Source of the DNA: Gemmatimonadaceae bacterium
Lineage (GTDB): Bacteria; Gemmatimonadota; Gemmatimonadetes; Gemmatimonadales; Gemmatimonadaceae
Length of the DNA: 32,703 nt
Reading direction: 5' to 3'
Assembly (NCBI GenBank): GCA_035606695.1
Contig: DATNEW010000038.1
Coordinates: 1-32,703, forward strand
Shown here in pieces: positions 5,473 through 28,801 of this stretch. Each line of letters begins with the position of its first letter. The stretch's first letter is position 1. Made by a program: the position numbers and the translations under genes. The notes beneath the pieces are model-generated. The model had not been told where the DNA came from. It was given only the letters and a program-made list of their open reading frames with translations, and searched no databases.

Positions 5473-5643
5473 ATGGCTCACGAACACGACACTCACGTGC
5501 ACGCGCACGGCTCCGACCGGAAAGCGGCATTCCTCGGTCTCATCATCGGCGTCATCGTCCTCTTCGCGATCGTTCGCACGATCATCGCCCTGACGAACGC
5601 CAGATACTCGCACGAGCGCCCGGCCGCCGAAGCCACCAAGTAG
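5473..5643 (+). CDS. Small single-span membrane protein
   Basis: A 56-codon frame starts 2 bp after the cyclophilin stop. Residues 1-17 are His/Asp-rich (MAHEHDTHVHAHGSDRK), 18-40 form one hydrophobic span (AAFLGLIIGVIVLFAIVRTI), and the end is short and polar. I do not know the family. The tight spacing, the clear membrane span and a stop just before the next promoter region support a real gene. The His-rich front could bind metal; that is speculation. Confidence 0.6.
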   Translation: MAHEHDTHVHAHGSDRKAAFLGLIIGVIVLFAIVRTIIALTNARYSHERPAAEATK

Positions 5644-5698
5644 GCCGTTCCAGCACCTTCTCCCTTGCCGGGGGCGAGTACGGCGCGCAAGATAGCGC

Positions 5699-7159
5699 AT
5701 GAAATACTCGGCCCTCCGTAACTACGTCGGCGGCGACTTCGTGACGCCCGCCGCCGACCGCCCGTTCCTCGACGTCTACAATCCCGCCAGCGGCGCCGTG
5801 ATCTCGCGCGTGCCGATGTCCGCCGCGGCCGACGTCGATGCCGCGGTGAAAGCCGCGCAGGCCGCATTGCCCGCCTGGTCCGCGACGCCGATCAAGGAAC
5901 GCGTTCAGGTTTTTTATCGATACAAGACGCTTCTCGAGCAGCACATCGACGAGCTCGCGGCGCTCGTCACCGAAGAGAACGGCAAGATCGAAAGCGAAGC
6001 GCGCGCCGAGATACTGAAGTCGGCGGAGCTGACGGAGTTCGCGTGTTCGCTGCCGCAGATCATCACCGGCGAGGTGCTCGAGGTGAGCCGCGGCGTCGAG
6101 TGTCGCGTCGAGCGATATCCCGTCGGTGTCGTCGCGTCGATCACGCCATTCAACTTTCCGAATATGGTCCCCAACTGGTCGATCCCGAACGCGGTCGCCT
6201 TGGGCAATTGCATGATTCTCAAGCCGTCCGAGCTCGTGCCGATCAGCGCGGGACGGATCGCCGAGTTGCTGAAGGAGGCGGGGTTGCCCGCGGGCGTGCT
6301 GCAGGTGGTGCATGGCGGCCAGGACGCGGTCGAAGCGATTTGCGATCATCCGGGCATCGCGGCGGTGTCCTTCGTAGGCTCCACGCGCGTCGCAAAGATC
6401 GTCTACAAGCGCGCCACCGCGAACCTCAAGCGCTGTCTCGCGCTTGGCGGCGCGAAGAATCATCTCATCGTGATGCCCGATGCGGATCGCGAGATGGCGG
6501 CGACGAACATCGTCGCGTCGATGTCGGGCTGCGCGGGCCAACGCTGCATGGCGGCGTCGGTGATGGTCGGCGTGTCGAAGGTGGATCACATCATTGAGCG
6601 CATGGTTGAAGTCGCGAGCGCGATGGTGCCGGGCAAGGACATCGGACCGGTGATCACCGCGGCGGCGCGCGAGCGGATTTCGCGCTACATCGACGAAGCG
6701 GAAGCGGCGGGCGCGAAGGTGCTCGTCGACGGACGCAAGACGGTGGTGCCGGGACGCGAAAGCGGCTTCTATCTCGGTCCGACGATCATCGACTACGTGA
6801 CGCCGGACATGCGCATCGCGCAGGAAGAAGTCTTCGGGCCGGTGTTGGTGATCGTGCGCGCGCGTGACGTGGACGAGGCGCTGCACGTCGAGAACGCATC
6901 GCCGTACGGGAACGCGGCGTCGGTGTTCACCGAGAGCGGCGGTGTCGCGCGGTACGTGATGGAGCACGCGAGCGCGGGCATGGTCGGCGTGAACGTCGGC
7001 GTGCCGGTGCCGCGCGAGCCGTTTTCGTTCGGCGGTTGGAACGAGTCGAAGTTCGGGGTTGGGGATATTACCGGCCGCGGCTCGATCGAGTTCTGGACGC
7101 AGGCGAAGAAGATGACGACGAAGTGGAACAAAGAGGCGGGAGTGAACTGGATGTCGTAA
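5699..7159 (+). CDS. mmsA: Methylmalonate/malonate-semialdehyde dehydrogenase (CoA-acylating)
   Basis: This 486-residue aldehyde dehydrogenase has the usual length of MmsA/IolA. It oxidises malonate semialdehyde to acetyl-CoA, or methylmalonate semialdehyde to propionyl-CoA, using NAD and CoA with loss of CO2. Evidence: TPFNFPNMVPNWSIPNA (147-163), NAD-binding SFVGSTR, GGAKNHLIVMPDAD in place of the usual ELGGK glutamate motif (a hallmark of this subgroup), and catalytic Cys283 in GQRCMA. It opens the pyrimidine-catabolism cluster and would handle its last step. A 10-bp inverted repeat lies between its stop and preA. The name fits the family and the neighbours. Confidence 0.92.
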   Translation: MKYSALRNYVGGDFVTPAADRPFLDVYNPASGAVISRVPMSAAADVDAAVKAAQAALPAWSATPIKERVQVFYRYKTLLEQHIDELAALVTEENGKIESEARAEILKSAELTEFACSLPQIITGEVLEVSRGVECRVERYPVGVVASITPFNFPNMVPNWSIPNAVALGNCMILKPSELVPISAGRIAELLKEAGLPAGVLQVVHGGQDAVEAICDHPGIAAVSFVGSTRVAKIVYKRATANLKRCLALGGAKNHLIVMPDADREMAATNIVASMSGCAGQRCMAASVMVGVSKVDHIIERMVEVASAMVPGKDIGPVITAAARERISRYIDEAEAAGAKVLVDGRKTVVPGRESGFYLGPTIIDYVTPDMRIAQEEVFGPVLVIVRARDVDEALHVENASPYGNAASVFTESGGVARYVMEHASAGMVGVNVGVPVPREPFSFGGWNESKFGVGDITGRGSIEFWTQAKKMTTKWNKEAGVNWMS

Positions 7160-7163
7160 ACCT

Positions 7164-7196
7164 GCTGTCATCCCGAGCGAAGCGAAGGATGACAGC
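7164..7196. repeat. Short palindromic repeat, family 1, between mmsA and preA
   Basis: GCTGTCATCC (7164-7173) and GGATGACAGC (7187-7196) form a perfect 10-bp inverted repeat around CGAGCGAAGCGAA. It is the smallest member of the GTCATCC...GGATGAC family seen across this operon. It sits 4 bp after the mmsA stop and 12 bp before the preA start, so any hairpin would be in the leader of preA. Confidence 0.75.
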
Positions 7197-7208
7197 TCCG
7201 GAGGCACC

Positions 7209-8339
7209 ATGGCTACACGTGCGGTCACGTTCACCGGCATCAAGTTCGAAAACCCGTTCCTGCTCTCCTCCGCCCCACCGACGGAGAGCGAGTCGAACAT
7301 CTTGCGCGCCTTCGACGCGGGCTGGGGCGGCGTGGTCGTGAAGACGATCGGCCTGCACCCCGTCGTGAACGTCGTCGGCGCGCGGACGAAATTCTTCCGC
7401 ACGACGCCCGACGACAATCAGGTGTCGATGAAGAAGCGCTCCGGTGCGGCGCTGCACGGCTCGTGGAATTGGGAGCTGATCTCCGACAAGAGCCTCGACT
7501 GGTGGGTGGCGCGCATTCGCCGGATCAAGGAAGTGCATCCGACCAAGGTGGTGATTGCGTCGATCATGGCCGGCTCCGGCAGCGACAAGGAGCTGCGCGC
7601 ATGGCAGACGCTCACCGAAGCCGTGCAGGACGCCGGCGCCGACGGCATCGAGACCAACTTCTCGTGTCCGCACATGGACCGCAAGGACATGGGCTCGAAC
7701 ATCGGCAAGAACACCGGGCTCTGCTCCGTCGTAACGGAGGCGGTGAAGGAAGTCGCCAAGATTCCGGTGTGGACGAAACTGACGCCGGCGACGAACGACA
7801 TCGTCGAAGAAGCCGGCGCATGCTTCCGCGGCGGAGCGGATGCGATCGTCTCGTCGAATACGTTCCCGTCGCTGCCCCTGATCGACCCCGAGACGCTCGA
7901 GTTCGAGATCAACGTCGACGGACTCGTGTCGAGTGGCGGTCTGGGTGGGCCGGCGATTCTCCCGATGTCGCTGGCGAACATGGCGCGCATGTGCCAGGCA
8001 TTCCCGGACCACGCGTTCTCGGGGATCGGCGGCGTGAGCGATTTCTCACAAGCGGCGTCGTACTTCCTGCTCGGGTGCGGCACCGTGCAAGTCTGCACGG
8101 CCGCGATGCTCGATTCCGCGGTCGGTCCGAATGTGATCAAGCGATTGAACGCCGGACTCGATCAGTTCCTCGAGCGGCATGGGTATTCGTGTATTGAGGA
8201 TTTCCGCGGGTCGCGCCGGGACAGAGTCGTGTTGCAGTCACAGATCCGGCGGCCGGACGGGGAGGGGTATCAGGGGGGCGAGGTGGTGGAGGGCTATGCG
8301 GCGCCGCTCACCGAGCAGCCGGCAACTTTGTCATCCTGA
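7209..8339 (+). CDS. preA: Dihydropyrimidine dehydrogenase, PreA-type catalytic subunit without ferredoxin domain
   Basis: This FMN-barrel protein (376 residues) reduces uracil/thymine to the dihydro form. It matches the dihydroorotate-dehydrogenase-like domain of dihydropyrimidine dehydrogenase: NPFLLSSAPPT at the start, NFSCPHMDRKDMG with catalytic Cys153, WTKLTPATNDI, GGADAIVSSNTF, GGLGGPAILPMSL and FSGIGGVSDF. E. coli PreA is longer and ends in two 4Fe-4S motifs. None is present here: the tail is RDRVVLQSQIRRPDGEGYQGG and more. No PreT partner lies in the window. The ATG at 7209 follows CGGAGG. The last codons and stop (TCA TCC TGA) belong to a family-1 repeat. It could also work on a related substrate, but the neighbours support pyrimidine reduction. 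Confidence 0.87.
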   Translation: MATRAVTFTGIKFENPFLLSSAPPTESESNILRAFDAGWGGVVVKTIGLHPVVNVVGARTKFFRTTPDDNQVSMKKRSGAALHGSWNWELISDKSLDWWVARIRRIKEVHPTKVVIASIMAGSGSDKELRAWQTLTEAVQDAGADGIETNFSCPHMDRKDMGSNIGKNTGLCSVVTEAVKEVAKIPVWTKLTPATNDIVEEAGACFRGGADAIVSSNTFPSLPLIDPETLEFEINVDGLVSSGGLGGPAILPMSLANMARMCQAFPDHAFSGIGGVSDFSQAASYFLLGCGTVQVCTAAMLDSAVGPNVIKRLNAGLDQFLERHGYSCIEDFRGSRRDRVVLQSQIRRPDGEGYQGGEVVEGYAAPLTEQPATLSS

Positions 8340-8460
8340 GGCGCGAAGCGGCGTGCGGCCGGCATCCTCGCGAGTCCTGGCGCAGGATGCAGCGTGCGGC
8401 CGTCATCCTCGCGAGTCCTGGCGCAGGATGCGGCGTGCGGCCGTCATCCTCGCGAGTCCT
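8331..8460. repeat. 41-bp tandem repeat, about 2.7 units, made of family-1 half sites
   Basis: Units start at 8351, 8392 and 8433. The first two are 41 bp each, built on GCGTGCGGCC, G(G/T)CATCCTCGCGAGTCC and TGGCGCAGGATGC. The third runs to 8460 and then continues into the left arm of the GIY-YIG unit. A further half site GTCATCCTGA at 8330-8339 supplies the preA stop codon. The array has no spacers and is not CRISPR-like. Confidence 0.8.
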
Positions 8461-8924
8461 CGCGCAGCGAGGGCGAGTCGAGGATCTGCTCTTGGGTCAC
8501 GCCGTTACTCAAACCATTCGTTCGCCAGATCGTCCCACGCCGGATTCGTACGTTCGATCAACGCGATCTTCTGCGCCCGCAACATGTGCTTGATCTGTTT
8601 TTCGCGGATGATGGCGAACATTGCTTCGTCGAAAACTTCGTAGTATACCAGTCGGTTGATCTTGTAACGCGATGTGAACGTGCAAAGACCATTTCGATGT
8701 TCCCACATGCGCCGCAGCAGATCATTGGAAATGCCGTTATACAAGTTTCGTGATTTGCTGGCGAGAATGTAAGCGTAGTATTGGCGCATGATCCGAACGC
8801 TATGACGCGTCTCGTGCGCGCCTGAAACCTTTTCATTGCGAGTCGGGGCAAAATGCGTGACCTCAAAGCAGATCCTCGACTTCCCTCCCCGTCGCTTCGC
8901 GAAGGGTCGGGTCGCGAGGATGAC
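8443..8924. mobile_element. Palindrome-bounded unit carrying a GIY-YIG nuclease gene
   Basis: The left arm (8443-8500) starts GTCATCCTCGCGA; the right arm (8857-8924) ends TCGCGAGGATGAC, its exact inverse. The inner ends of the arms, 8477-8500 and 8857-8880, are inverted repeats identical at 21 of 24 positions. The nuclease gene fills the middle, with its stop codon 4 bp from the left arm. Two shorter family members with the same arms but no gene lie at 10289-10419 and 13364-13475. The layout is like an autonomous unit and its gene-less derivatives. Mobility itself is inferred. Confidence 0.55.
8505..8789 (-). CDS. Single-domain GIY-YIG nuclease
   Basis: This 94-residue protein is one GIY-YIG domain and little else. 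YYAYILASKSRNLYNGISNDL at the start holds the two-strand motif (the second half reads YNG rather than YIG). LLRRMWEHRNG has the catalytic-region arginine, and RLVYYE and AIIREKQIKHM complete the family pattern. I start at the ATG at 8789 (MRQYYAYIL); the same frame is open far upstream, but that part is antisense to repeat and aminotransferase sequence. The gene runs against the pyrimidine operon and separates preA from the aminotransferase. It lies between the arms of a palindromic repeat. Small proteins of this class are widespread and of unclear role; DNA cutting linked to repeat spread is one possibility. Confidence 0.85.
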   Translation of the reverse strand: MRQYYAYILASKSRNLYNGISNDLLRRMWEHRNGLCTFTSRYKINRLVYYEVFDEAMFAIIREKQIKHMLRAQKIALIERTNPAWDDLANEWFE

Positions 8925-8957
8925 GGTCTCTCTTCTCCACCGCTGCGCGGGAGGACG

Positions 8958-10307
8958 ATGGTCATGCCTCCCTGCCCCCACACCCCCCGCCCCTACACCG
9001 GTCCCTCGCGCGACGAGATCATCGCGATGCGCCGGCACTACACCAACCCGACCATCTTCACGCTCTACGCCGAGCCGCTGCTGATCGTCGAGGGATTCAT
9101 GCAGTACCTGTTCGACGAGACCGGACGGCGCTATCTCGACTTCTTCGCCGGCATCGTCACCGTCTCCGTCGGCCACTGCCACCCGCACGTCGTGCGCGCG
9201 GTGCAGGAACAGTCGGCGACGCTGCAGCACACGACGACCATCTATCTGCACCCGAACTTCGCGGTGTTCGCCAAGCGGCTCGCGTCGAAGATGCCGAAGG
9301 GCTCCGGACTCGAGGTCACCTACTTCACGAACAGCGGCAGCGAGGCGAACGATCTCGCGGTGACCATGGCCCGTCTGCACACCGGCCACACCGACGTCAT
9401 CGCGGTGCGCAACGGCTATCACGGCGGCAGTCCGAGCGCGATGGGCCTCACGTCACACAACACGTGGAAGTTTCCCGTCGGCGGTGACGGACACGTGCAT
9501 CATGCCATCAATCCCGATCCGTACCGCAGCCCCTTCACCGGGACGCCTGAAGAGATCGCGACGAAGAGCGTTGCCGACATTCGCGACGTCATCCGCTACT
9601 CGACGCCCGGCAACGTCGCGGCGTTCATCGCCGAGCCAATTCAGGGCGTCGGTGGCGCGACGCGCGGGGCGCGCAACTATCTGCGCGAGGCATACGCCGT
9701 CGTTCGCGAGCACGGTGGGCTCTGCATCGCCGACGAAGTGCAGACGGGCTTCGGCCGCACCGGCGAACATTTCTGGGGTTTCGAGAACTTTGATGTCGTG
9801 CCGGATTTCGTCACGATGGCGAAGGGCATCGGCAACGGCGCTCCACTCGCCGCGGTAACGACGCGCATGGACATCGCGCGGACGCTCGCGCAGCGGCTGC
9901 ACTTCAATACGTATGGCGGTAATCCCGTCTCGATGGCCGCCGGCCTCGCGGTGCTCGACGTCATCGAGCGTGAGGAGATTCAACGCAACGCGCGCGAGCG
10001 CGGCGCGGAGGTGCGCGCGGGACTCGAGCGGCTGCAACGCGCGCATCCTCTGATCGGCGACGTTCGCGGCATGGGCTTGATGCTCGGCGTCGAGCTGGTG
10101 AGCGATCGGGCGGCGAAGACGCCGGCGAAGAAACAGGCGGTCGAGGTGCTCGAGGCGTCGCGCGAGCTCGGGCTCCTGCTCGGAAAGGGCGGGCTGGACG
10201 GAAACGTGCTGCGCATCAAGCCGCCGATGTGCATCACGGCGGCGGACGTGGAATTTGCGATTGATGTGTTGGATGAGGCGTTGCGGCGGTCATCCTCGCG
10301 ACCCTGA
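8958..10307 (+). CDS. Class III PLP aminotransferase, AGXT2-like (beta-alanine/beta-aminoisobutyrate aminotransferase)
   Basis: This 449-residue fold-type I aminotransferase would move the amino group of beta-alanine or beta-aminoisobutyrate to pyruvate or glyoxylate, giving the semialdehyde used by MmsA. Visible motifs: [32 protein letters not shown] (phosphate contacts), [22 protein letters not shown] with the pyridine-binding Asp, and MAKGIGNG with Lys289 for PLP. I start at ATG 8958 with GGGAGGA just before it; the frame is open further up but that part is family-1 repeat. The last six residues and the stop come from the next repeat copy. The acceptor (pyruvate or glyoxylate) cannot be told from sequence. 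Ornithine/acetylornithine-type use is less likely in this setting. Confidence 0.87.
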
Positions 10308-10419
10308 GCGTAGCGAAGGAGAGACGAGGATCTGCTCTCGAGTCACGTTGATTGGCCGATCCCGAAGGACGTTCATAGAAGCAGATCCTCGACTCGCCCG
10401 TCGGGCTCGCGAGGATGAC
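10289..10419. repeat. Palindromic repeat, family 1, between the aminotransferase and dihydropyrimidinase
   Basis: GTCATCCTCGCGA (10289-10301) pairs with TCGCGAGGATGAC (10407-10419). The left arm (10289-10346) is 58 bp, the same length as the left arm of the GIY-YIG unit, and ends in ACGAGGATCTGCTCTCGAGT. The inner right arm starts AGCAGATCCTCGAC at 10380. A 33-bp spacer replaces the nuclease gene. Its left edge forms the 3' end of the aminotransferase gene. Confidence 0.8.
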
Positions 10420-10433
10420 ACTCGGAGGGAAGA

Positions 10434-11906
10434 ATGCACTTCGACACCATCATCAAATCCGGCAACGTCGTCACCCCCGCCGGCACCTTCACCGGCGACG
10501 TCGGCATCACCGGCGAGAAGATCTCCGCGCTCGGCGCCGACCTCGGCACGGACGCCGGCAAGGTCATCGACGCCTCCGGCCACCATGTGATCCCCGGCGT
10601 GCTCGACGTCCACGTCCATCTCGAGCTGCCGTTCTGCGGCACCGTCTCCGCGGATGACTACCGCAGCGGCACCCGCGCCGGCGCACGCGGCGGCGTCACG
10701 ACGCTCATCGACTTCGCGATCCCGCCCGCCGGCGGCACGCTCAACGACGCCGCCGACCTCTGGATGAAGAAGGCGGAAGGCAAGTCGCTGATCGATTATA
10801 CATTTCATATATGCATCACTAAATATCAGGATCAGAAAGACCAGATTCGCGGCATGGTCGAGCGCGGCTTCCCGACCTTCAAGGAATTCATGATCTATGA
10901 ATCCGAGGGATGGCAGTCCGACGACCGCGCGCTCTTCGGCACGCTCGAGCGCATGCGCGAGTACGGCGCCATGCTGCTCGTTCATGCCGAATCGGCGCGC
11001 GTGCTCGACGAGCTGATCGCGCGCCATCACACACCCGAGCTCATGCGCGAATACGGCGCACGCCTGCACGCCATCACCCGCCCCAACTTCGTCGAGGCCG
11101 AGGCGATCCAGCGCGCCGTGCAGTGGAGTGAGGCGACCGGCGGACAGCTCTACATCGTCCATATGTCGACGGGCGAAGGCGCCGACATCATCCGCGCCGC
11201 GCAGACGCGCGGCGTGCCGGTCATCGCGGAAACGTGCGTGCAGTATCTCGTGCTCGACGATTCGGTATTCGCGCGCGACGACGGCCACCTGTTCGCCTGC
11301 TGTCCGCAGCTCAAGAAGCCGAAGGACGTCGAGCGCCTGTGGGCCGGCCTCAAGCACGGCGAAGTATCCGTCATCTCCACCGACACGTGCACGTTCACGC
11401 GCGAACAGAAGGCGATGTGGGAAGGCGACTGGACGAAGATTCCCATGGGCATGCCCGGCCTCGAAACACTCATGCCGCTCACCTACACGCGCGGCGTACT
11501 CGGCGGACGTCTCTCGCTCGAGGAGATGTGCATGAAGCTGAGCACGAATCCGGCGCGCATCATGGGGTTGTATCCGAGAAAGGGCGCGATTCAGATTGGG
11601 GCCGACGCGGATCTCGCGATCATTCATCCGACGAAGACGATGACCGTCCGTCCGTCGTCGATGGAGACGAATGCCGATTGGTCGCCGTACGAAGGGTGGA
11701 ATCTCGCCGGCTTCTCCCGCACCACGCTTTCGCGCGGCGACGTCATCGTCGACGACTACAAGGTCGTCGGTGAGGCGGGCCGAGGACGTTGGCTGCCGCG
11801 AACGAGCGCGGGTCTCGCGGCGCCGGCCGAGCGCAGTCGGATCGCCGCATCGGCGGCGGCGCTGCGCTTCGCCGCTGACGCCGAGCAGTTGGTGCAGGCG
11901 TCATGA
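10434..11906 (+). CDS. hydA: Dihydropyrimidinase
   Basis: This 490-residue amidohydrolase opens dihydrouracil/dihydrothymine to the N-carbamoyl amino acid. The two-metal site is visible: DVHVHLE (His60, His62), the carboxylated lysine in TFKEFM (Lys150), LVHAE (His184), IVHMS (His243) and the Asp in STDTCTF (Asp317). The length and the late NPARIMGLYPRKGAIQIGADADLAI segment fit the hydantoinase/dihydropyrimidinase family. GGAGGGAAG precedes the ATG. The gene ends in ATGA, overlapping the transporter start by 4 bp, so the two are translationally coupled. A D-hydantoinase would look alike, but the cluster supports dihydropyrimidinase. Confidence 0.93.
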   Translation: MHFDTIIKSGNVVTPAGTFTGDVGITGEKISALGADLGTDAGKVIDASGHHVIPGVLDVHVHLELPFCGTVSADDYRSGTRAGARGGVTTLIDFAIPPAGGTLNDAADLWMKKAEGKSLIDYTFHICITKYQDQKDQIRGMVERGFPTFKEFMIYESEGWQSDDRALFGTLERMREYGAMLLVHAESARVLDELIARHHTPELMREYGARLHAITRPNFVEAEAIQRAVQWSEATGGQLYIVHMSTGEGADIIRAAQTRGVPVIAETCVQYLVLDDSVFARDDGHLFACCPQLKKPKDVERLWAGLKHGEVSVISTDTCTFTREQKAMWEGDWTKIPMGMPGLETLMPLTYTRGVLGGRLSLEEMCMKLSTNPARIMGLYPRKGAIQIGADADLAIIHPTKTMTVRPSSMETNADWSPYEGWNLAGFSRTTLSRGDVIVDDYKVVGEAGRGRWLPRTSAGLAAPAERSRIAASAAALRFAADAEQLVQAS

Positions 11907-13414
11907 GCCGGCAGATCGAGCGGCCGGATGGTCGTGTCGAACTCGTGGACACCGCGCGCGTCGACGCGAGCCCGCTGTCGAATCACGATCTCGCGCCCGT
12001 GCCGCTCGGCGCCCGAGACTGGAGCACGTACAACTACGCGGCGCTGTGGATCAGCATGGCGCACTGCATTCCGACCTACATGCTCGCGTCTGGGCTGCTC
12101 GCCGCGGGCATGAGTTGGTCGCAGGCGATCATTACAATTCTCTTGGGGAATAGTATCGTTCTGATACCAATTCTCCTCAACTCGCATCCCGGCACCAAGT
12201 ACGGCATTCCGTTCCCCGTCTTCGCGCGCGCGTCGTACGGCACCATCGGCTCCAATCTCCCCGCGTTGATGCGCGCGCTCGTCGCGTGCGGATGGTTCGG
12301 CATTCAGGCGTGGATCGGCGGCGAGGCGCTGAACACGTTCTTCGGCGTCGTCGTTCCCGGATGGGAGCATCTCCTTCCCGGCAGCGTGGACGGACACACG
12401 ACAACGGCGTGGATCTCGTTCCTGCTCTTCTGGGGCATGAACGTGTGGGTCATCGTGCGCGGGATGGATCTCCTGCGCCGCGTTGAAAATTGGGCGGCGC
12501 CGTTCGTACTCGTCATGGCCGCGGTGCTCCTGGTGTGGGCGATTCGCGAAGCGCACGGTGTCGGTCCGTTGCTGCGCGATCACGGCAAGTTTCACAGTTT
12601 CGGCGAATTCCTGCCGGTGTTCGTTCCGTCGCTCACGGCGATGATCGGCTACTGGGCGACGCTCTCGCTCAACATGCCGGACTTCACGCGATTCGGCCGC
12701 AGCCAACGCGATCAGGCGCTCGGCCAGATCGTCGCGCTGCCGACGACGATGACGGTCTTCGCGGCGATGGGCGTGCTCATCACGAGCGCCACGGTGATCA
12801 TCTACGGCGAAGCGATCTGGGACCCGGTGAAGCTCGTCGCGAAGTTCCACGCGCCGTTGGTCGTCGCACTGTCGATGTTCACCGTCGTGATCGCGACGCT
12901 GGCCGTGAACATCGCCGCGAACGTCGTCTCGCCCGCGAACGATTTCGCGAACGTGTTTCCGAAGGCGATCAACTTTCGCCGCGGCGGATTGCTCACCGGC
13001 GTGCTCGGGATCGCGATGATGCCGTGGCGTCTCCTCGCCGATCCCTCGGGATACATCTTCAACTGGCTCCTCGGCTACTCGGGCGGTCTCGGCTCGATCG
13101 CCGGCGTGCTGATCGCGGACTACTGGCTCGTGCGGAAGACTCGGCTCGAGTTAGAGGATTTGTATCTTCCCGACGGCGTGTACCGCTACCACAATGGGTG
13201 GAACTGGAACGCCGTCGTCGCGACGATTCTGGGCTGCGCGCTCGCGTGGGGCGGGCTCGTGATTCCCGTGCTCAAGCCGTTGTATTCGTATGCGTGGTTC
13301 GTGGGGTTCATCGTGGCGGGAGGAGCGTATTACGCCACAAGTGTTCTCTTCTCGGCCGACATCGTCATCCTCGCGACCGAGCGGAGCGAGGGAGACGAGG
13401 ATCTGCTTTCGTGA
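11903..13414 (+). CDS. NCS1-family nucleobase:cation symporter
   Basis: This 503-residue protein has about twelve hydrophobic spans and the NCS1 signature: LGARDWSTYNYAALWISMAHCI near 33-54, LNSHPGTKYGIPFPVFARASYG, CGWFGIQAWIGGEALN and GYWATLSLNMPDFTRFGRSQ. NCS1 proteins carry uracil, allantoin, hydantoins or related rings with Na+ or H+. Its place between dihydropyrimidinase and beta-ureidopropionase suggests uracil/thymine or dihydropyrimidine uptake. The ATG overlaps the hydA stop (ATGA). About the last 16 residues (VILATERSEGDEDLLS) are encoded by a palindromic repeat, so the original C-terminus was probably replaced. Confidence 0.92.
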   Translation: MSRQIERPDGRVELVDTARVDASPLSNHDLAPVPLGARDWSTYNYAALWISMAHCIPTYMLASGLLAAGMSWSQAIITILLGNSIVLIPILLNSHPGTKYGIPFPVFARASYGTIGSNLPALMRALVACGWFGIQAWIGGEALNTFFGVVVPGWEHLLPGSVDGHTTTAWISFLLFWGMNVWVIVRGMDLLRRVENWAAPFVLVMAAVLLVWAIREAHGVGPLLRDHGKFHSFGEFLPVFVPSLTAMIGYWATLSLNMPDFTRFGRSQRDQALGQIVALPTTMTVFAAMGVLITSATVIIYGEAIWDPVKLVAKFHAPLVVALSMFTVVIATLAVNIAANVVSPANDFANVFPKAINFRRGGLLTGVLGIAMMPWRLLADPSGYIFNWLLGYSGGLGSIAGVLIADYWLVRKTRLELEDLYLPDGVYRYHNGWNWNAVVATILGCALAWGGLVIPVLKPLYSYAWFVGFIVAGGAYYATSVLFSADIVILATERSEGDEDLLS

Positions 13415-13475
13415 TCGCCGCTGGATAGTGTGACCCAAGAGCAGATCCTCGACTCGCTACGCTCGCGAGGATGAC
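13364..13475. repeat. Palindromic repeat, family 1, between the transporter and beta-ureidopropionase
   Basis: GTCATCCTCGCGA (13364-13376) pairs with TCGCGAGGATGAC (13463-13475). Bases 13430-13453 are identical, all 24, to the reverse complement of 8477-8500 in the GIY-YIG unit. Only a short spacer lies in the middle. The transporter reads into it and stops at 13414. The next gene's GGAG ribosome site starts 4 bp after it. Confidence 0.82.
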
Positions 13476-13487
13476 TACTGGAGACTT

Positions 13488-14357
13488 ATGCCCCGACTCG
13501 TCAAAGCCGGCCTCATTCAGGCCACGCACGCCTGCTCGACCGCCGAGAAGCTCGACACCATTCGCGACGCGAACGTCGAGAAGCACGTCGCGCTCATCGA
13601 ACAGGCCGCGCGCGAAGGCGTGCAGATCCTGTGCATGCAGGAGATCTTCACCGGCCCATACTTTTGCGCCGAGCAATCGACGCGCTGGTATGAATCGACG
13701 GAGCGCATTCCCGACGGGCCGACGACGAAGCTCATGCAGGAGCTCGCGAAGAAGCACCGCATGGTGATCGTCGTGCCGCTGTACGAAGAGGAAACGACCG
13801 GCGTCTACTACAACACCGCCGCCGTGATCGACGCCGACGGCACCTACCTCGGCAAGTATCGCAAGAACCACATTCCGCATACCGCGCCGGGCTTCTGGGA
13901 AAAGTTCTACTTCAAGCCCGGCAACCTTGGCTACCCGGTATTCAAGACGAAGTACGCGGACGTCGGCGTGTATATCTGCTACGACCGCCATTTCCCTGAG
14001 GGCGCGCGCGAGCTCGGCCTCAATGGCGCCGAGATCGTGTTCAATCCGTCGGCGACCGTCGCGGGCTTATCAGAATACTTATGGAAGCTCGAGCAGCCGG
14101 CGCACGCGGTCGCGAACGCGTTTTTCGTGGGCGCCATCAATCGCGTCGGCTACGAGGCGCCGTGGAACATCGGCGAGTTCTATGGGCAGAGCTACTTCTG
14201 CGATCCGCGCGGCCAGTTCGTGGCGAGCGCGTCGCGCGACAGGACGGAGCTCGTCACCGCCGAGTTGGATCTCGACAAGATCCGCGAAGTGCGGAATGTG
14301 TGGCAGTTCTACCGGGATCGTAGACCAGAGACGTATGGTGGGCTGGTCAAGTTGTAG
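13488..14357 (+). CDS. Beta-ureidopropionase (N-carbamoyl-beta-alanine amidohydrolase), nitrilase superfamily
   Basis: This 289-residue CN-hydrolase cleaves N-carbamoyl-beta-alanine to beta-alanine, CO2 and ammonia. The catalytic triad is visible: Glu52 in MQEIF, Lys126 in YRKNHIP, and Cys164 in YICYDRHFPEGAR. KNHIPHTAPGFWEKFYF matches the beta-ureidopropionase/N-carbamoylputrescine branch. N-carbamoylputrescine amidase is the main alternative; the pyrimidine genes upstream argue against it. The ATG at 13488 follows CTGGAGACTT. A long imperfect palindrome comes after the stop, between this gene and the oppositely directed ATPase. Confidence 0.9.
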   Translation: MPRLVKAGLIQATHACSTAEKLDTIRDANVEKHVALIEQAAREGVQILCMQEIFTGPYFCAEQSTRWYESTERIPDGPTTKLMQELAKKHRMVIVVPLYEEETTGVYYNTAAVIDADGTYLGKYRKNHIPHTAPGFWEKFYFKPGNLGYPVFKTKYADVGVYICYDRHFPEGARELGLNGAEIVFNPSATVAGLSEYLWKLEQPAHAVANAFFVGAINRVGYEAPWNIGEFYGQSYFCDPRGQFVASASRDRTELVTAELDLDKIREVRNVWQFYRDRRPETYGGLVKL

Positions 14358-14375
14358 TGGCCATCAAAAAAAATG

Positions 14376-14484
14376 ACAACGACAAGATCAGACCAAATCG
14401 GACAAAATCTGTTGTTCCGTCTTCGGTGAAGCATTCTCGCGGGCTGGACAGATCCGGTCATATGTTGTCTGATCTTGTCGTCGT
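14376..14484. repeat. Imperfect palindromic element between convergent genes
   Basis: Bases 14376-14393 (ACAACGACAAGATCAGAC) and 14467-14484 (GTCTGATCTTGTCGTCGT) are inverted repeats matching at 17 of 18 positions, with weaker pairing further in. The arms are not related to family 1. It lies between the converging ends of the beta-ureidopropionase and ATPase genes, so it may also act as a two-way terminator; a run of A at 14366-14373 stands just before it. Confidence 0.65.
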
Positions 14485-14510
14485 GTTGCGGTTAGGCCCC
14501 GATCACCCTC

Positions 14511-15311
14511 CTACAGATACCGCAGAAACCTCTCCCGCCCATTCAAGAAGTCGCGCGTCACCACCACGTGGTCCAGCTCCTCATACTCGACCCGCGCGAT
14601 AGACCCTCCATCGAACGAGTAGATGCTGGCCCCGGGATACCCGAGCAGAATGGGCGAATGCGTCGCGATGATGAACTGCGCGTTGTCCTGAATCATGTCG
14701 CCGATCATCGAGATCAACGCCAGTTGACTCTGCGGCGACAGCGGCGCCTCGGGTTCATCGAGCAGATACAAACCGTCCGGCACGAATCGCGAACGAAAGA
14801 GCTTGAGAAAGCTCTGGCCGTGTGAGTTCGCGTCGAGATTGACGCCGTACCGCTGCTCCATCTCCATCAGCGATCGCATCGCCGGCAAACGCGCGAGAGT
14901 CCTCGCATGCGCCGATCGATTCGCGAATTCGGTCTCGATCTCTTCGAGCCGTCCCAACATTTCCGCCCGCAACCTGGACAGCGCCTTCGCGAATCCGAAA
15001 AAGTCCTCGGCGCGCAGGAAGAAGCCACGGCGAACGCGGCGGTTCCACACGAGCTTGATCGCGCTGCCGAGCTCGCGTTGCGCGTTGAGGGTCGGATCGC
15101 TGTCGAGGCTCTCGCTGCCGATCGTCGGCAGCCCGGCGGCCGCGGCAATTCCCTCGAGCAGCGTCGACTTGCCGGAGCCGTTTTCGCCCACCAGAAACGT
15201 GACCGTCGCGCTCGCCTCCAACGCGCGCAGATTGCGAATGACGGGCACGTTGAACGGGAAACGGTCGCCCGCAATGGCGCCTCGCGGCTCGATCGATCGC
15301 AAATGCGGCAT
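14511..15311 (-). CDS. AAA-type ATPase of the SMC/ABC-like class
   Basis: This 266-residue protein has VGENGSGKST (Walker A, 41-50), a Walker B with LYLLDEPEAPLS (Asp185, Glu186) and a switch region IIATHSPIL. A helical, charged middle (105-150) stands in for the coiled coil of larger relatives. This is the compact ATPase type related to RecF/ABC heads, often annotated as a predicted ATPase. There is no nuclease (TOPRIM) domain and no partner gene beside it, so an OLD-like or toxin role is not supported. It is divergent from the sensor kinase, with fewer than 100 bp between the starts. Role unknown. Confidence 0.82.
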   Translation of the reverse strand: MPHLRSIEPRGAIAGDRFPFNVPVIRNLRALEASATVTFLVGENGSGKSTLLEGIAAAAGLPTIGSESLDSDPTLNAQRELGSAIKLVWNRRVRRGFFLRAEDFFGFAKALSRLRAEMLGRLEEIETEFANRSAHARTLARLPAMRSLMEMEQRYGVNLDANSHGQSFLKLFRSRFVPDGLYLLDEPEAPLSPQSQLALISMIGDMIQDNAQFIIATHSPILLGYPGASIYSFDGGSIARVEYEELDHVVVTRDFLNGRERFLRYL

Positions 15312-24790: not shown

Positions 24791-24800
24791 CGCTACTGCC
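24791..24800. repeat. Left copy of the 10-bp direct repeat CGCTACTGCC flanking the 4-kb element
   Basis: CGCTACTGCC occurs here and at 28792-28801, exactly outside the terminal inverted repeats. This is the pattern of a target-site duplication. Confidence 0.75.
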
Positions 24801-24801
24801 G

Positions 24802-24863
24802 GCTTTGCACATAAAACCGGGCTGAGCGGCTGATTTATGGGCAGGTAGTTCGTTTTATGTGCA
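24802..24863. repeat. Left end: terminal inverted repeat and TTTATGTGCA boxes
   Basis: TGCACATAAA (minus orientation) lies at 24806-24815 in the terminal repeat. TTTATGGGCA (one change) lies at 24834-24843 and TTTATGTGCA at 24854-24863, 20 bp apart. Such spaced boxes would suit binding by a transposase or recombinase. Confidence 0.7.
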
Positions 24864-24979
24864 GAGGCCAAGCGGAGGCACGCCGCAAAGCGGCGATTGC
24901 GGTGGAAAAATCGTGTCACCCTGTCCTAGCTTAGATCTAGAGTCCCTTCAGGGCGGGGTGGTGCATGGGCGGGGTGGTA

Positions 24980-25186
24980 ATGGATACAACCGATGTGAAG
25001 TCGCCAGAGGCAGTCGAAGAAGGTCCGGTGAAAACGACGGCGCCGCAGGTTGCAACGACTCCCGCTGGCGAAATGGTTTATGAGTTGGTGCGTCCGCTCG
25101 GTGACAGCCAGCGCTCGCACGCGGCGCGCCACACTGGCGGAGCAACGGCCGCAAACGATTCGCTCATTTCCGTCAGTAACACGTAG
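24980..25186 (+). CDS. Doubtful small protein
   Basis: A 68-codon frame (MDTTDVKSPEAVEEGPVKTT...) starts after GGGGTGG near the left end of the element. The first half reads like a normal acidic protein. The second half overlaps, in antisense, the C-terminal part of the minus-strand gene at 25078-25335 and looks less natural. Only one of the two is likely real in the overlap, and I favour the other. No family recognised. Confidence 0.25.
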   Translation: MDTTDVKSPEAVEEGPVKTTAPQVATTPAGEMVYELVRPLGDSQRSHAARHTGGATAANDSLISVSNT

Positions 25187-25335
25187 CCGCAACCCGGACA
25201 CGCGAACTCAATGTTGCCGCGATCCTTCTCGTCCTTTGGCTTGAAGGTACCGACGTAGACTCTGGTTGGTTTGTCACCGATTCCGGCTACCGGCTGGAGT
25301 TCACGCCGTTCTGGCCGCACATGCGCCTCACACAT
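25078..25335 (-). CDS. Small unknown protein with a CPGCG motif
   Basis: An 85-residue frame starts at ATG 25335, 50 bp after the transposase stop on the same strand. It has a charged front (MCEAHVRPERRELQPVAGIGDK), then GTFKPKDEKDRGNIEFACPGCGYVLL and VAPPVWRAACERWL. The CPGCG pair resembles half of a zinc ribbon, with further cysteines at Cys2 and AACER. I do not recognise the family. The natural composition supports a gene. Confidence 0.5.
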   Translation of the reverse strand: MCEAHVRPERRELQPVAGIGDKPTRVYVGTFKPKDEKDRGNIEFACPGCGYVLLTEMSESFAAVAPPVWRAACERWLSPSGRTNS

Positions 25336-25384
25336 GAGAGAGTTGTAAAGCTGCGCGTTTTCCGGCCAATCCGCTAGGCTGGGG

Positions 25385-26671
25385 CTATGCAGCCGCATCG
25401 AACCCTGGCACCGACACGCCAAGTTCAAAGGTTGAGTGAACGACGCACACGATGTTGTACGCGATCACTTTGAGTAGTAGTTCGTTGATCTGCGCCGGCC
25501 GGGTCTTGCTCCGCAACGTGTCGCCGAACACGCGCTTGATCGCGGAGAACGTCGATTCGACGTTGCTCCGCGCGTGGTAGTGCGCGAGGAAGTCATCGCG
25601 ACGAAGGTTGTATAAGTGGTACAGCCAGCGCCACGCCGTGCTGTCACGCTGCGCGCCGGGATTCTGCCACACGCGCATCGCTGAAGCCTGCGCGGTCGAA
25701 CGCAACGCGATGTAGGGCGTCGCGCCCACCGCCGCAGCGAGGGCCACGTTTTTGCGCGAACCGTATGCCTTGTCGGCGACGATCTCCTTCATGTGGAAGC
25801 GTTCAGCGCCAGCGAGCACCAGCGGGCTGAATTGCGGAGCGTCATTCGCGTTCCGCTCCGTCACGCGCGCTGCGCCAATCACGTTCGTTTTCACGCCCAC
25901 GAGCGCGTGCAGTTTGATCCAATCATGCGACTCCAACTCCATGCCGCCGTACTTGCTCGTGAAGTGGCGATAGAAGTTCGTCGTTCCGAAGCCTGTCGAA
26001 TCGACGGCGAACGTCTCTTCGACGACGCCGAGCGGAAGGGCGCTCGCCGTCACGAGGTCATAGAGGATCGGAGTCAGTGCCGCGTCCTCGATGGTCTTGA
26101 GGACCGTGTTGAAGTGCCAGGGCCGACTCAGGTAGCCCGCCTCGTGAGCCTCGCGGAGATCCGTCATGAAGCGACGGCTACTCATGGTCGAGTAGACCTT
26201 GAACGTCGCGGCGAACAGCGCCTCATTGAGCGGCACGCGTGGGCGTCCGCGCGTCTGTGTCGGTGCTGGGACGTTCGCGCACAGATCGCGTAGCAAGCGG
26301 CAGAACAGCGCTTTCTCTTGCGTCTGCGCCTTGTTGTACGCGGGCCAGTTCTGCGGATAGGTGATGCGGACCTTTGCGGTCTCAGTCACCGTTTCCGTCA
26401 CGTGCACGTTGCCGTCCGTCGATTCAGTCACGGTCTGGCGCTGAATCACGAACTCGACGGCGAAACAGTGCTTGCACTTCATGCCCCGCAGCTCGTAGTC
26501 GGGGCAGGTGCAGCGCGGGCCGGTGGCGTCCATGCAGACGCGGTAGTGGCCCTTCGTGCTTTGCGACGGGACGATCCAATCGTCTCCGCGCTTTTCGATG
26601 CGCGCACGCACGGCGATTTCCTTGCCGCGCGCCTCCCGCACAACATCCAGCGTTCTCGTGTTCATGACCAA
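25385..26671 (-). CDS. DDE transposase with N-terminal SWIM zinc finger
   Basis: This 428-residue protein has a SWIM-type zinc motif at the front (CTCPDYELRGMKCKHC: Cys54, Cys56, Cys66, His68) and a DDE transposase core behind. Catalytic candidates are Asp224 (FAVDSTGFGT), Asp300 (EIVADKAYGS) and Glu372 (NVESTFSAIKRVFG), an order and spacing like IS4/IS5-type DDE_Tnp_1 enzymes. The frame is complete, with no stop or shift. Its own terminal repeats are not apparent close to the gene, so it either moves the larger 24801-28791 element or has ends I could not spot. A palindrome (26696-26721) lies just upstream and may hold its promoter or operator. Confidence 0.85.
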   Translation of the reverse strand: MVMNTRTLDVVREARGKEIAVRARIEKRGDDWIVPSQSTKGHYRVCMDATGPRCTCPDYELRGMKCKHCFAVEFVIQRQTVTESTDGNVHVTETVTETAKVRITYPQNWPAYNKAQTQEKALFCRLLRDLCANVPAPTQTRGRPRVPLNEALFAATFKVYSTMSSRRFMTDLREAHEAGYLSRPWHFNTVLKTIEDAALTPILYDLVTASALPLGVVEETFAVDSTGFGTTNFYRHFTSKYGGMELESHDWIKLHALVGVKTNVIGAARVTERNANDAPQFSPLVLAGAERFHMKEIVADKAYGSRKNVALAAAVGATPYIALRSTAQASAMRVWQNPGAQRDSTAWRWLYHLYNLRRDDFLAHYHARSNVESTFSAIKRVFGDTLRSKTRPAQINELLLKVIAYNIVCVVHSTFELGVSVPGFDAAA

Positions 26672-26672
26672 T

Positions 26673-26721
26673 GTCCGGTTTCAGTCCGGACACCAATATA
26701 CGTGAGCGCTTACGTATATTC
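26673..26721. promoter_or_regulatory. Two inverted repeats upstream of the transposase
   Basis: TGTCCGG (26673-26679)/CCGGACA (26687-26693) sits directly before the transposase ATG and could hide its ribosome site. AATATACGT (26696-26704)/ACGTATATT (26713-26721) is a perfect 9-bp inverted repeat with an 8-bp spacer and is A/T-rich, as expected of an operator or promoter. Function inferred from place only. Confidence 0.45.
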
Positions 26722-26857
26722 AACGGGCAATTTGTGCCGCACAGCGTCATCATTGGGTGCACCTTCGGTGGGCCGTCGATCCGCGAAGGTGTTGACCATC
26801 GTAGCCACCAGATGCTATGATGTGGTCAGCCCCCCGCGTTGTCGGCGGCAAAGGGTT

Positions 26858-26950
26858 TGGCGGAAGCGGAGGGAATCGCACCCCCGACCGTGTTCGAGGC
26901 ACGGTGCTTCGGTTTATCAGACCGGCGCTTTACTTCTCAGCCACGCTTCC
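26858..26950 (-). tRNA. tRNA-like gene: serine-type body with GAU (isoleucine) anticodon
   Basis: Read on the minus strand the 93 bases fold as a class II tRNA: acceptor GGAAGCG/CGCTTCC, D-stem GCT/AGC, anticodon stem CCGGT/ACCGA (first pair C-A), loop CTGATAA, a long variable arm ACCGTG/CACGGT, T-stem GGGGG/CCCTC, discriminator G and encoded CCA. The long variable arm with G at the discriminator is what seryl-tRNA synthetase uses, yet the anticodon reads GAU. The D-loop lacks the usual GG pair and the T-loop has G instead of T at position 55, so the elbow contact is weakened. It may be a decaying gene or an unusual tRNA carried by the element. Confidence 0.6.
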
Positions 26951-26964
26951 AGATTTTGACTTTT

Positions 26965-27010
26965 CAGAAACGGCCATCTCGTTCTCAGGCGGGTGGCCGT
27001 TCTGCTTTTC
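26965..27010. other. Stem-loop beside the tRNA-like gene
   Basis: CAGAAACGGCCATC and GGTGGCCGTTCTG pair almost fully around a short loop and are followed by CTTTTC. It lies just upstream of the tRNA-like gene (minus strand). It may be a weak terminator for plus-strand transcripts or a processing signal. Confidence 0.35.
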
Positions 27011-27090
27011 AGTGACTTAGCTGGTGGTATAATCCCCGAAATCGAGTTCCCCTTACGCTTGATCCGCATCGCCGATTCGATGCGCGGAAC

Positions 27091-27137
27091 AAAAAAGCGC
27101 GGGACCGCCACTCCGATTCGGAGTCGCTGTCCCGCGC
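27091..27137 (-). terminator. Intrinsic terminator of the small two-gene operon
   Basis: On the minus strand GCGCGGGAC pairs with GTCCCGCGC (27129-27137 and 27097-27105) with further pairing inside (ACTCCG/CGGAGT), followed by TTTTTT. It lies about 90 bp past the stop of the gene at 27229. Confidence 0.85.
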
Positions 27138-27228
27138 GTTCGCGGTACTCAGGATTGTGCGGGCGAGGTGGCGCCCGATACAAACTTAGGTCAGGTGGTC
27201 ACACATGATCAAACGTGACGCGTGTTTG

Positions 27229-27474
27229 TCATTTCGATTCTGGACTGTTCGTCGGGCGCACTAAGTGCTCGAATCTCGTCGTGTACGCGGCGAGATCCTC
27301 GGCCGTTGGCACGCGACCAAGCACGAGATCGTCGGCCTCAACGCCATCCGCGTCCGTCAGCGAGCGCAACTCTTCATTGAGCGCCTTGGCGCTGGGGCCG
27401 AATTGCGACCGCCATTTCAATTCGAGGCGCGCCAGCTCTGCCGCTTCTTCCGGAGTGCGTTCGATGCGCGTCAC
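27229..27474 (-). CDS. Small acidic protein, second gene of a two-gene operon
   Basis: I start at GTG 27474, which overlaps the TGA of the upstream gene (GTGA), giving 81 residues: VTRIERTPEEAAELARLELKW, then QFGPSAKALNEELRSLTDADG and a Leu/Asp-rich end. A GTG at 27501 would add nine residues. I do not recognise the family. Helical, acidic in the second half, without membrane span. The coupled start with a small basic partner is reminiscent of antitoxin/toxin pairs, but no toxin fold is visible, so this is only a suggestion. Confidence 0.6.
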   Translation of the reverse strand: MTRIERTPEEAAELARLELKWRSQFGPSAKALNEELRSLTDADGVEADDLVLGRVPTAEDLAAYTTRFEHLVRPTNSPESK

Positions 27475-27668
27475 GACGTTTCCCGCTCGCGTTTCGCCCA
27501 CCTAGCCATGACGGCCTTGCGCGCCGATTCGCTGCGCTCTTCTGGCGTCATCTTCGCCGCGCGAGCCTTGCCGCCCTTGAGACCACCCTTTCGGCCCAGC
27601 GCGACGGCGGCGGGGTCCTTTCGTTTCTTGGGCGGCGTCGCCGCCGTGCGTGAGCGCTTCGGTGTCAT
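27471..27668 (-). CDS. Small basic KGG/GGKARA-type protein
   Basis: A 65-residue product from ATG 27668: MTPKRSRTAATPPKKRKDPA, then ALGRKGGLKGGKARAAKMTPEERSE and ARKAVMARWAKRERETS. The GGKARA...MTPEERSE...ARKAVMARW pattern is common in small basic proteins of unknown role, often near mobile elements, and could bind DNA or RNA. The frame is open 25 codons further, but that stretch overlaps the lipoprotein gene. The stop overlaps the next start by 4 bp. Confidence 0.65.
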   Translation of the reverse strand: MTPKRSRTAATPPKKRKDPAAVALGRKGGLKGGKARAAKMTPEERSESARKAVMARWAKRERETS

Positions 27669-27715
27669 GGCAACAAGATGCGCGTGTGTGGCAACACTGC
27701 ACAAGCGAAAACGTG

Positions 27716-28408
27716 CTAGCGCTTGGTTGCCTCGGCCCGACACTGCGCGATGGCAACAGTCTTGTCGAATCGCACAGCGGATGATTCGTAGTGACAGTAC
27801 CGCGCGACCGCACAGGCCGACCGTGCGGCATTTGGCGCATACACTTCCGCGTCAGTTCGATCACGACTGACGATGGCCGCGTCCTGTTGCGCACATTTTG
27901 ACTCCATGGTGACGGCTCGTGGTTCGGCCGTTCCGAGACGATTCTCAGCTAGCTCACGAGTTTGGGACTCTAGCGTCGATTCCCACTTCCCGGTCGTCGA
28001 GCAGTCCACGTGCGCGTTGGTGAACATTCCAGAAACGTTGCCGCGCCACTGCGCGGTAACTCGCACGGTAGAATGAGCGCTATCCCCCCGAACCAAGACG
28101 TTGTAAACGACGCTTTCGAGAACGCCGCGTGATCCGTCGGCTGCTCGACCGCAATTGGCGAGATCGGTAGCCTCCGACAACGCGTACGGCACATTCAGCG
28201 GATCGGTCGCGATGAATCCCGAAGCGCGGTCTATGGTCTTAATCGGAATGTTATTCGCCGCGAAAATGTCGATAACGGCATTCCAGGTCTTGTTTGACGA
28301 CGCGGCAATGTCCATCGAGGGGCGTGGCGCGGCAGGCGGCGGCAAGGTTGGCACGCACGCCGTCACACACGTAGTCAATAGCGCGACGGAAAGGGAGGCG
28401 CGGCTCAT
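27716..28408 (-). CDS. Predicted lipoprotein of unknown function
   Basis: The 230-residue product starts with a lipoprotein signal (MSRASLSVALLTTCVTACVP, probable lipidated Cys18) and a proline linker. A domain NKTWNAVIDIFAANNIPIKTIDRASGFIATDPL follows, a pattern of mixed helix and strand seen in small outer-membrane lipoproteins with BamC-like folds. The second half has several cysteines (NCGRAAD, VDCSTTG, KCAQQ, SACAVARYC, AQCRAE), possibly forming disulfides. Composition is visibly less GC-rich than the core genes, in line with transfer. It is divergent from the XRE regulator, with an inverted repeat between the two starts. Confidence 0.68.
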   Translation of the reverse strand: MSRASLSVALLTTCVTACVPTLPPPAAPRPSMDIAASSNKTWNAVIDIFAANNIPIKTIDRASGFIATDPLNVPYALSEATDLANCGRAADGSRGVLESVVYNVLVRGDSAHSTVRVTAQWRGNVSGMFTNAHVDCSTTGKWESTLESQTRELAENRLGTAEPRAVTMESKCAQQDAAIVSRDRTDAEVYAPNAARSACAVARYCHYESSAVRFDKTVAIAQCRAEATKR

Positions 28409-28436
28409 CCAGCGATGTCTCCAATAGACTGTGCTC

Positions 28437-28459
28437 CCGATAGATTGTAGAGCTATCGG
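28437..28459. promoter_or_regulatory. Inverted repeat, candidate operator of the XRE regulator
   Basis: CCGATAG (28437-28443) and CTATCGG (28453-28459) are a perfect 7-bp inverted repeat, 9-bp spacer, between the divergent lipoprotein and XRE genes and 24 bp before the XRE start. Such sites are usual for small HTH repressors acting on their own promoter. Confidence 0.5.
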
Positions 28460-28482
28460 AGTCAGCCCGCCAGCGTTCGGAC

Positions 28483-28710
28483 ATGCGCTACCCCGAGGCG
28501 TTTGGCCGAACCGTGCGGCGGCTCCGCGAAGAACGACAAGTCTCTCAGGAAGCGTTCGCGGCGGACGCTGGAATCAGCCGCACCTACATGAGCGAGATCG
28601 AACGCGGCGTGACGACCGTTTCACTCGACACAATTGCGAAGCTGGCCAAGGCGCTCGACATCAGCATGGCGACGCTCATGAAATACATGGAGGACTCCGA
28701 CCGGCGGTGA
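28483..28710 (+). CDS. XRE-family HTH regulator
   Basis: The 75-residue protein is one HTH_3 domain: FGRTVRRLREERQVSQEAFA, AADAGISRTYMSEIERG (recognition helix) and VSLDTIAKLAKALDISMATLM. Nothing else is fused. It may repress its own and the lipoprotein's transcription through the inverted repeat at 28437-28459. It is the last gene before the right end of the element. Confidence 0.9.
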   Translation: MRYPEAFGRTVRRLREERQVSQEAFAADAGISRTYMSEIERGVTTVSLDTIAKLAKALDISMATLMKYMEDSDRR

Positions 28711-28739
28711 CGGCCCGGCCCGCTGGGACTCCTAGGGAC

Positions 28740-28791
28740 TTTATGTGCAGCCCGCCTGTTTTATGTGCAGACGGGCTTTTATGTGCAAAGC
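28740..28791. repeat. Right end: three TTTATGTGCA boxes and terminal inverted repeat
   Basis: TTTATGTGCA occurs at 28740-28749, 28760-28769 and 28778-28787, that is 20 and 18 bp apart. The last lies in the terminal inverted repeat 28777-28791. GCCCGCCTG and CAGACGGGC around the middle box can form a hairpin followed by TTTT, possibly stopping XRE transcripts at the border. Confidence 0.75.
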
Positions 28792-28801
28792 CGCTACTGC
28801 C
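28792..28801. repeat. Right copy of the 10-bp direct repeat CGCTACTGCC
   Basis: Identical to 24791-24800; it adjoins the right terminal inverted repeat. Read with the left copy it looks like a target-site duplication. Confidence 0.75.

Follow-up and report, generated by a model that had tools for sequence, protein, structure and literature searches.

A serine-type tRNA body with an isoleucine GAU anticodon inside a transposon of a Gemmatimonadaceae bacterium

Here we describe a bacterial tRNA gene whose body and anticodon point to different amino acids. The window, i.e., the whole stretch of DNA that was analysed, is an entire contig of 32.7 kb (32,703 nucleotides) from a 5.9 Mb draft genome, and it contains a single tRNA gene, on the minus strand, called by ARAGORN as a tRNA-Ile with a GAT anticodon at position 33. 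In our best explanation, held with middling confidence and drawn from sequence comparison, this gene would derive from a tRNA-Ser whose anticodon was changed to GAU, would travel as cargo of a recently inserted IS5-group-like transposon, and would encode a weakly active or decaying missense tRNA. The observation reported in an earlier note on this DNA is confirmed and the inference attached to it was half right: what stands is a serine-type body, an isoleucine anticodon, a location within a mobile element and, judging from its identity elements, a molecule that would be chargeable in principle.

26858-26950, minus strand: class II Ser-type tRNA gene (ARAGORN; Rfam RF00005, 54.7 bits; position-by-position reading)
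26916-26918, minus strand: anticodon GAU (position-by-position reading)
26858-26860, minus strand: encoded CCA (position-by-position reading)

The acceptor stem of the molecule (GGAAGCG/CGCTTCC) is paired at all seven positions and its T stem (GGGGG/CCCTC) at all five, with one G-U pair, the acceptor arrangement being by sequence 7/5. U8 and G13-A22 are present, the variable region comprises 23 nt including a 6-bp stem, and G73 is followed by the encoded CCA. The anticodon stem (CCGGT/ACCGA) is paired at four of its five positions, and the loop that it closes, CTGATAA, presents the GAU anticodon together with A37; our reading agrees here with the discriminator, CCA, loop and anticodon given in the earlier note. 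The C-A pair noticed in the anticodon stem corresponds to C27-A43, and the elbow is weak as had been claimed: the D loop is only 7 nt long (AGAAGTA) and has no GG, with A18 in place of G18 and G19 present, and the T loop (TGCGATT) reads T54-G55-C56. Altogether, 25 of the 26 stem pairs are intact. Folded on its own, the tRNA has an ordinary energy (z -0.88), which was set aside as evidence.

The gene scores 54.7 bits (E 2.6e-9) with Rfam RF00005, above the gathering threshold of 29 bits. Throughout the host genome the same model gave 49 matches of 46.8-75 bits, among which the class II tRNAs span 46.8-61.4 bits, a range that includes the window tRNA, and the four long-arm tRNA-Ser genes span 55.6-61.2 bits. 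The score of the window tRNA is thus in line with that of a functional class II tRNA and, by this measure, the gene is no low-scoring pseudogene, so the low covariance score that had been proposed as a sign against the earlier reading was not found.

When the gene was globally aligned with 47 other host tRNAs, its four nearest neighbours were precisely the four long-arm tRNA-Ser genes, which, together with the 6-bp variable stem, bears out the earlier assignment to a class II body of the serine type. Serine identity resides mainly in the variable arm, the anticodon playing no part, and G1-C72 and G2-C71 are conserved in most bacterial tRNA-Ser (PMC9976931). The window tRNA retains both pairs as well as G73, and it shares with the canonical molecule the long arm, G13-A22 and the closest identity. 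Unlike the canonical tRNA-Ser, it carries GAU, which reads neither UCN nor AGY, a 7-nt D loop without GG, and G55; furthermore, it encodes CCA, as just 2 of the 47 other host tRNAs do, a rarity that hints at a foreign source. The determinants of isoleucine identity are the anticodon, a strong one, A73, C4-G69 and C29-G41 (PMC9976931), and those lying outside the anticodon are missing here, where G73, A4-U69 and G29-C41 are found. With the class I tRNA-Ile(GAU) of the host, the window tRNA has in common the loop CTGATAA, whereas body, variable arm, discriminator and acceptor sequence differ; because of this identical loop, partial charging with isoleucine is possible. The claim that seryl-tRNA synthetase ignores the anticodon is upheld by the published rule (PMC9976931), and this enzyme could charge the window tRNA if the RNA is active.

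If the window tRNA is made and matures, seryl-tRNA synthetase could charge it, and serine would then be inserted infrequently at AUC and AUU codons. Without the G18-Psi55 contact, with a D loop this short and with C27 facing A43, the tRNA would be expected to be unstable and inefficient, which may explain why a missense tRNA is tolerated. The host possesses a normal class I tRNA-Ile(GAU), and its tRNA-Ser genes, four of them with long arms, form a complete set; there is therefore no decoding gap to fill, and the host would have no need of the window tRNA, for which weak activity or decay appears most likely. Recoding within the element itself was considered and rejected: the 13 ATC codons of its transposase correspond to isoleucine or other residues in three aligned homologues, never to serine, and nothing in the element thus points to a need for serine at AUC. 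The special purpose suggested in the earlier note was tested in this one way and was not supported. In the literature, we found no paper on serine insertion at isoleucine codons through such a tRNA.

This combination recalls the allo-tRNAs, class II molecules with SerRS-type identity elements and non-serine anticodons (Mukai et al., 2017, reviewed in PMC7609411), among which isoleucine anticodons (UAU) are some of the commonest and of which one degenerate member overlaps a transposon-related ORF (PMC7609411). The window tRNA resembles them in joining serine identity elements to a non-serine anticodon. However, allo-tRNAs are defined by a 12-bp acceptor branch with 8/4 or 9/3 acceptor/T arms (PMC7609411), and here the arms are the ordinary 7/5 and the anticodon is GAU; the window tRNA may thus act like an allo-tRNA without being one.

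The gene lies within an element of 3,992 bp whose 16-bp inverted repeats match perfectly and which is flanked by a direct repeat of 9 bp; this substantiates the earlier statement that the gene belongs to mobile DNA:

24801-28792: transposon carrying the tRNA, 3,992 bp (16/16 terminal inverted repeats, 9-bp target duplication, synteny break in the congeners G001-G005)
24792-24800, plus strand: left target-site duplication GCTACTGCC (only two copies of the 9-mer in the window)
28793-28801, plus strand: right target-site duplication GCTACTGCC (the second of these two copies)
24801-24816, plus strand: left terminal inverted repeat GGCTTTGCACATAAAA (perfect 16-bp match to the right end)
28777-28792, minus strand: right terminal inverted repeat TTTTATGTGCAAAGCC (perfect 16-bp match to the left end)
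24834 (one mismatch), 24854, 28740 and 28760: additional TTTATGTGCA repeats near both ends
25078-25428, minus strand: small ORF with a cysteine-rich motif, cargo (one homologue in 179 family genomes; no significant family)
25385-26671, minus strand: full-length transposase of 428 aa, DDE_Tnp_1, IS5/IS1182-like (Pfam PF01609, 3e-20)
27229-27501, minus strand: hypothetical ORF, cargo (no family found)
27471-27743, minus strand: hypothetical Ala/Lys-rich ORF, cargo (no family found)
27716-28408, minus strand: hypothetical lipoprotein-like ORF (homologues elsewhere in the phylum, in 13 of 200 genomes, its own included)
28483-28710, plus strand: XRE-type helix-turn-helix regulator of 75 aa (Pfam HTH_3, 5e-15)

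The DDE_Tnp_1 transposase, the terminal inverted repeats and the target duplication liken the element to the IS5/IS1182 group. It differs from these transposons in falling below the NCBIfam cut-offs (116.6 bits for IS5_2, under the equivalog cut-off of 140), in its size of 4 kb with cargo, and in its subterminal TTTATGTGCA repeats, a double end repeat found in the window alone among 395 genomes of the phylum. A possible N-terminal SWIM zinc finger of the transposase scores 18.3 bits, under its cut-off of 19.6. A near-perfect inverted repeat of 23 bp with a 1-nt gap, forming a hairpin, lies within the transposon at 27094-27140, where it separates the tRNA from the following ORF.

In five congeners (G001-G005), the flanks are common to all at about 70-85% identity and some 4.1 kb are missing at the site; this synteny also led us to reject the possibility of a contaminant contig. 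The element occurs at a single locus in the genome, and its perfect ends suggest a recent insertion, so that most of the odd features of the tRNA probably predate it. Another region of the window, 5643-14520, likewise has no DNA similarity to the syntenic loci of the congeners; its ORFs, judged by eye, include a dehydrogenase, a dihydropyrimidinase-like protein, a transporter and an amidohydrolase, and it is possibly a catabolic island.

The search for relatives, which the earlier note had proposed among related elements or as intact copies with a serine anticodon, returned none: no DNA relative of the tRNA was found in 59 relatives, no match over the full length in records of phages or plasmids, and no intact relative with a normal serine anticodon, and in viral contigs a pattern meant to catch relatives with G55 matched by chance only. 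The whole element was not found in plasmids. Close relatives of the transposase are rare, carriage by related transposons was discarded after two transposase homologues (L051, L052) proved to be without a tRNA, and no comparable tRNA lies near the homologues of the lipoprotein-like ORF.

In order of likelihood, missense cargo that is weakly active or in decay ranks first and a plain pseudogene second. The latter, possible but doubtful, would be a piece of a foreign tRNA-Ser that the transposon picked up and that drifts untranscribed. The near-universal positions 18 and 55 are indeed changed, the molecule showing A18-G19 and T54-G55-C56 where G18-G19 and T54-Psi55-C56 are expected, so that A would face G at the 18-55 contact of the elbow; this A18/G55 combination is unique among the host tRNAs, and the window tRNA alone is without the TTCRA T loop found in all 47 others. 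The shortened D loop, the broken 27-43 pair, the lack of a promoter-like site directly upstream on the minus strand, and the empty searches just described (the 59 relatives, full-length phage and plasmid matches, G55 viral relatives) also fit a pseudogene. Nevertheless, its Rfam score is on par with that of functional class II tRNAs of the host, the encoded CCA and G73 are kept, and the perfect element ends imply recent movement. Moreover, the stems have stayed paired although two invariant loop sites are changed, and this speaks against simple decay, in the leading reading as well as in this one: if loops and stems decayed equally, the rough probability of a single broken pair out of 26 would be about 0.009 at a per-site rate of 2/13, and 0.15 at 1/13, so that the stems appear more intact than neutral drift would roughly predict, a suggestive result. 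To call the gene a fossil, as had been ventured, is consequently too strong, given the 25 intact pairs, the perfect ends and the open frame of the transposase.

Serine-like bodies with GAU also exist in phages. A motif for this combination, applied to IMG/VR and to 395 genomes of the phylum and followed by an ARAGORN filter, yielded 17 distinct class II GAU tRNAs: that of the window, one from a bacterium of the same family, and 15 from phages; each count is one of distinct sequences and is no measure of how many independent events occurred, and the defects seen may be biased by the filter. Control motifs gave no distinct sequence for GAC, GTC and GGT, and 55 for GTT. The GTT cases, which are common in tRNA-rich phages and lie nearly all in tRNA arrays and with G73 (viral loci L246-L316, e.g., L249, L251, L284), may be asparagine tRNAs with long arms, which means that in phages a long arm alone is no proof of serine identity and calls for caution with the window tRNA too. 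In the bacterial case (L206) the 2-71 pair is broken. A Ser-like GAU tRNA of a bacterium of the same family (L232:7801-7887, on contig C14 of G017) is near a contig end, has no CCA and carries a 2-71 mismatch. As for the 15 phage sequences, six come from multi-tRNA contigs and have A73, and nine are the sole tRNA in the fetched stretch, although another could exist elsewhere on the contig. In eight of these nine, the 1-72 and 2-71 pairs are both broken, by base changes that differ between groups, with the remaining cloverleaf essentially intact; they reside in contigs of tailed phages or prophages:

L061:5170-5257
L094:9450-9537
L197:6919-7006
L078:7263-7352
L181:1814-1903
L202:1117-1204
L195:3775-3862
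L093:1120-1211

Both pairs are kept in the ninth (L189), as in the window tRNA. The phage molecules (e.g., L061, L078, L093, L189) share with the latter the Ser-like body, GAU, their condition of sole tRNA and a setting in mobile DNA; they differ from it in a normal elbow (GG, TTCGA), in the unpaired 1-72 and 2-71 of most of them, and in belonging to tailed phages rather than to a transposon. The phage pattern suggests, as far as sequence can indicate, selection against charging and a function other than ordinary decoding.

These phage tRNAs bear on a quite unlikely account of the window gene, namely a tRNA-like RNA with a non-decoding job on mobile elements, e.g., a decoy for toxins that cut or modify tRNAs, in which case they would be its relatives in kind. 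The recurrence of GAU in 15 distinct phage sequences, against none for three control anticodons, and the loss of pairs that would disfavour serine charging speak for it. However, the window tRNA keeps a chargeable acceptor end, unlike the phage group, to which it has no close sequence relation, and in the element, a generic XRE regulator aside, no toxin or defence gene was recognised. Least probable of all, and very unlikely, is that isoleucyl-tRNA synthetase recognises the GAU loop and charges the class II body, which would then work as an isoleucine tRNA: this loop, identical to that of the host tRNA-Ile, holds a strong isoleucine determinant (PMC9976931), and tRNA-rich phages do carry class II GAU tRNAs with an Ile-type A73, but the other isoleucine determinants are replaced, the full set of serine acceptor elements is present, and the host already has a normal tRNA-Ile.

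The host genome also contains a mirror case, a class I body of 72 nt with a serine GCT anticodon (L345:6682-6753; host contig C9:212181-212252), whose anticodon stem is poorly paired, which is missing from the five congeners and which lies about 0.76 kb downstream of a Gabija GajA-GajB pair.

More surprising as a lead than the window gene itself are the GAU tRNAs that recur in phages. It is conceivable, though we think it rather unlikely, that mobile elements repeatedly carry Ser-type GAU tRNA bodies as a distinct functional class, for a controlled misreading of AUC and AUU or, in those with an unpaired acceptor end, as tRNA mimics that carry no amino acid, the window gene being a chargeable, transposon-borne member. 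Natural tRNAs in which body and anticodon disagree constitute rare tests of the strictness of the genetic code, and a transposon that takes a potential Ile-to-Ser missense tRNA from genome to genome would carry a source of mistranslation with it.
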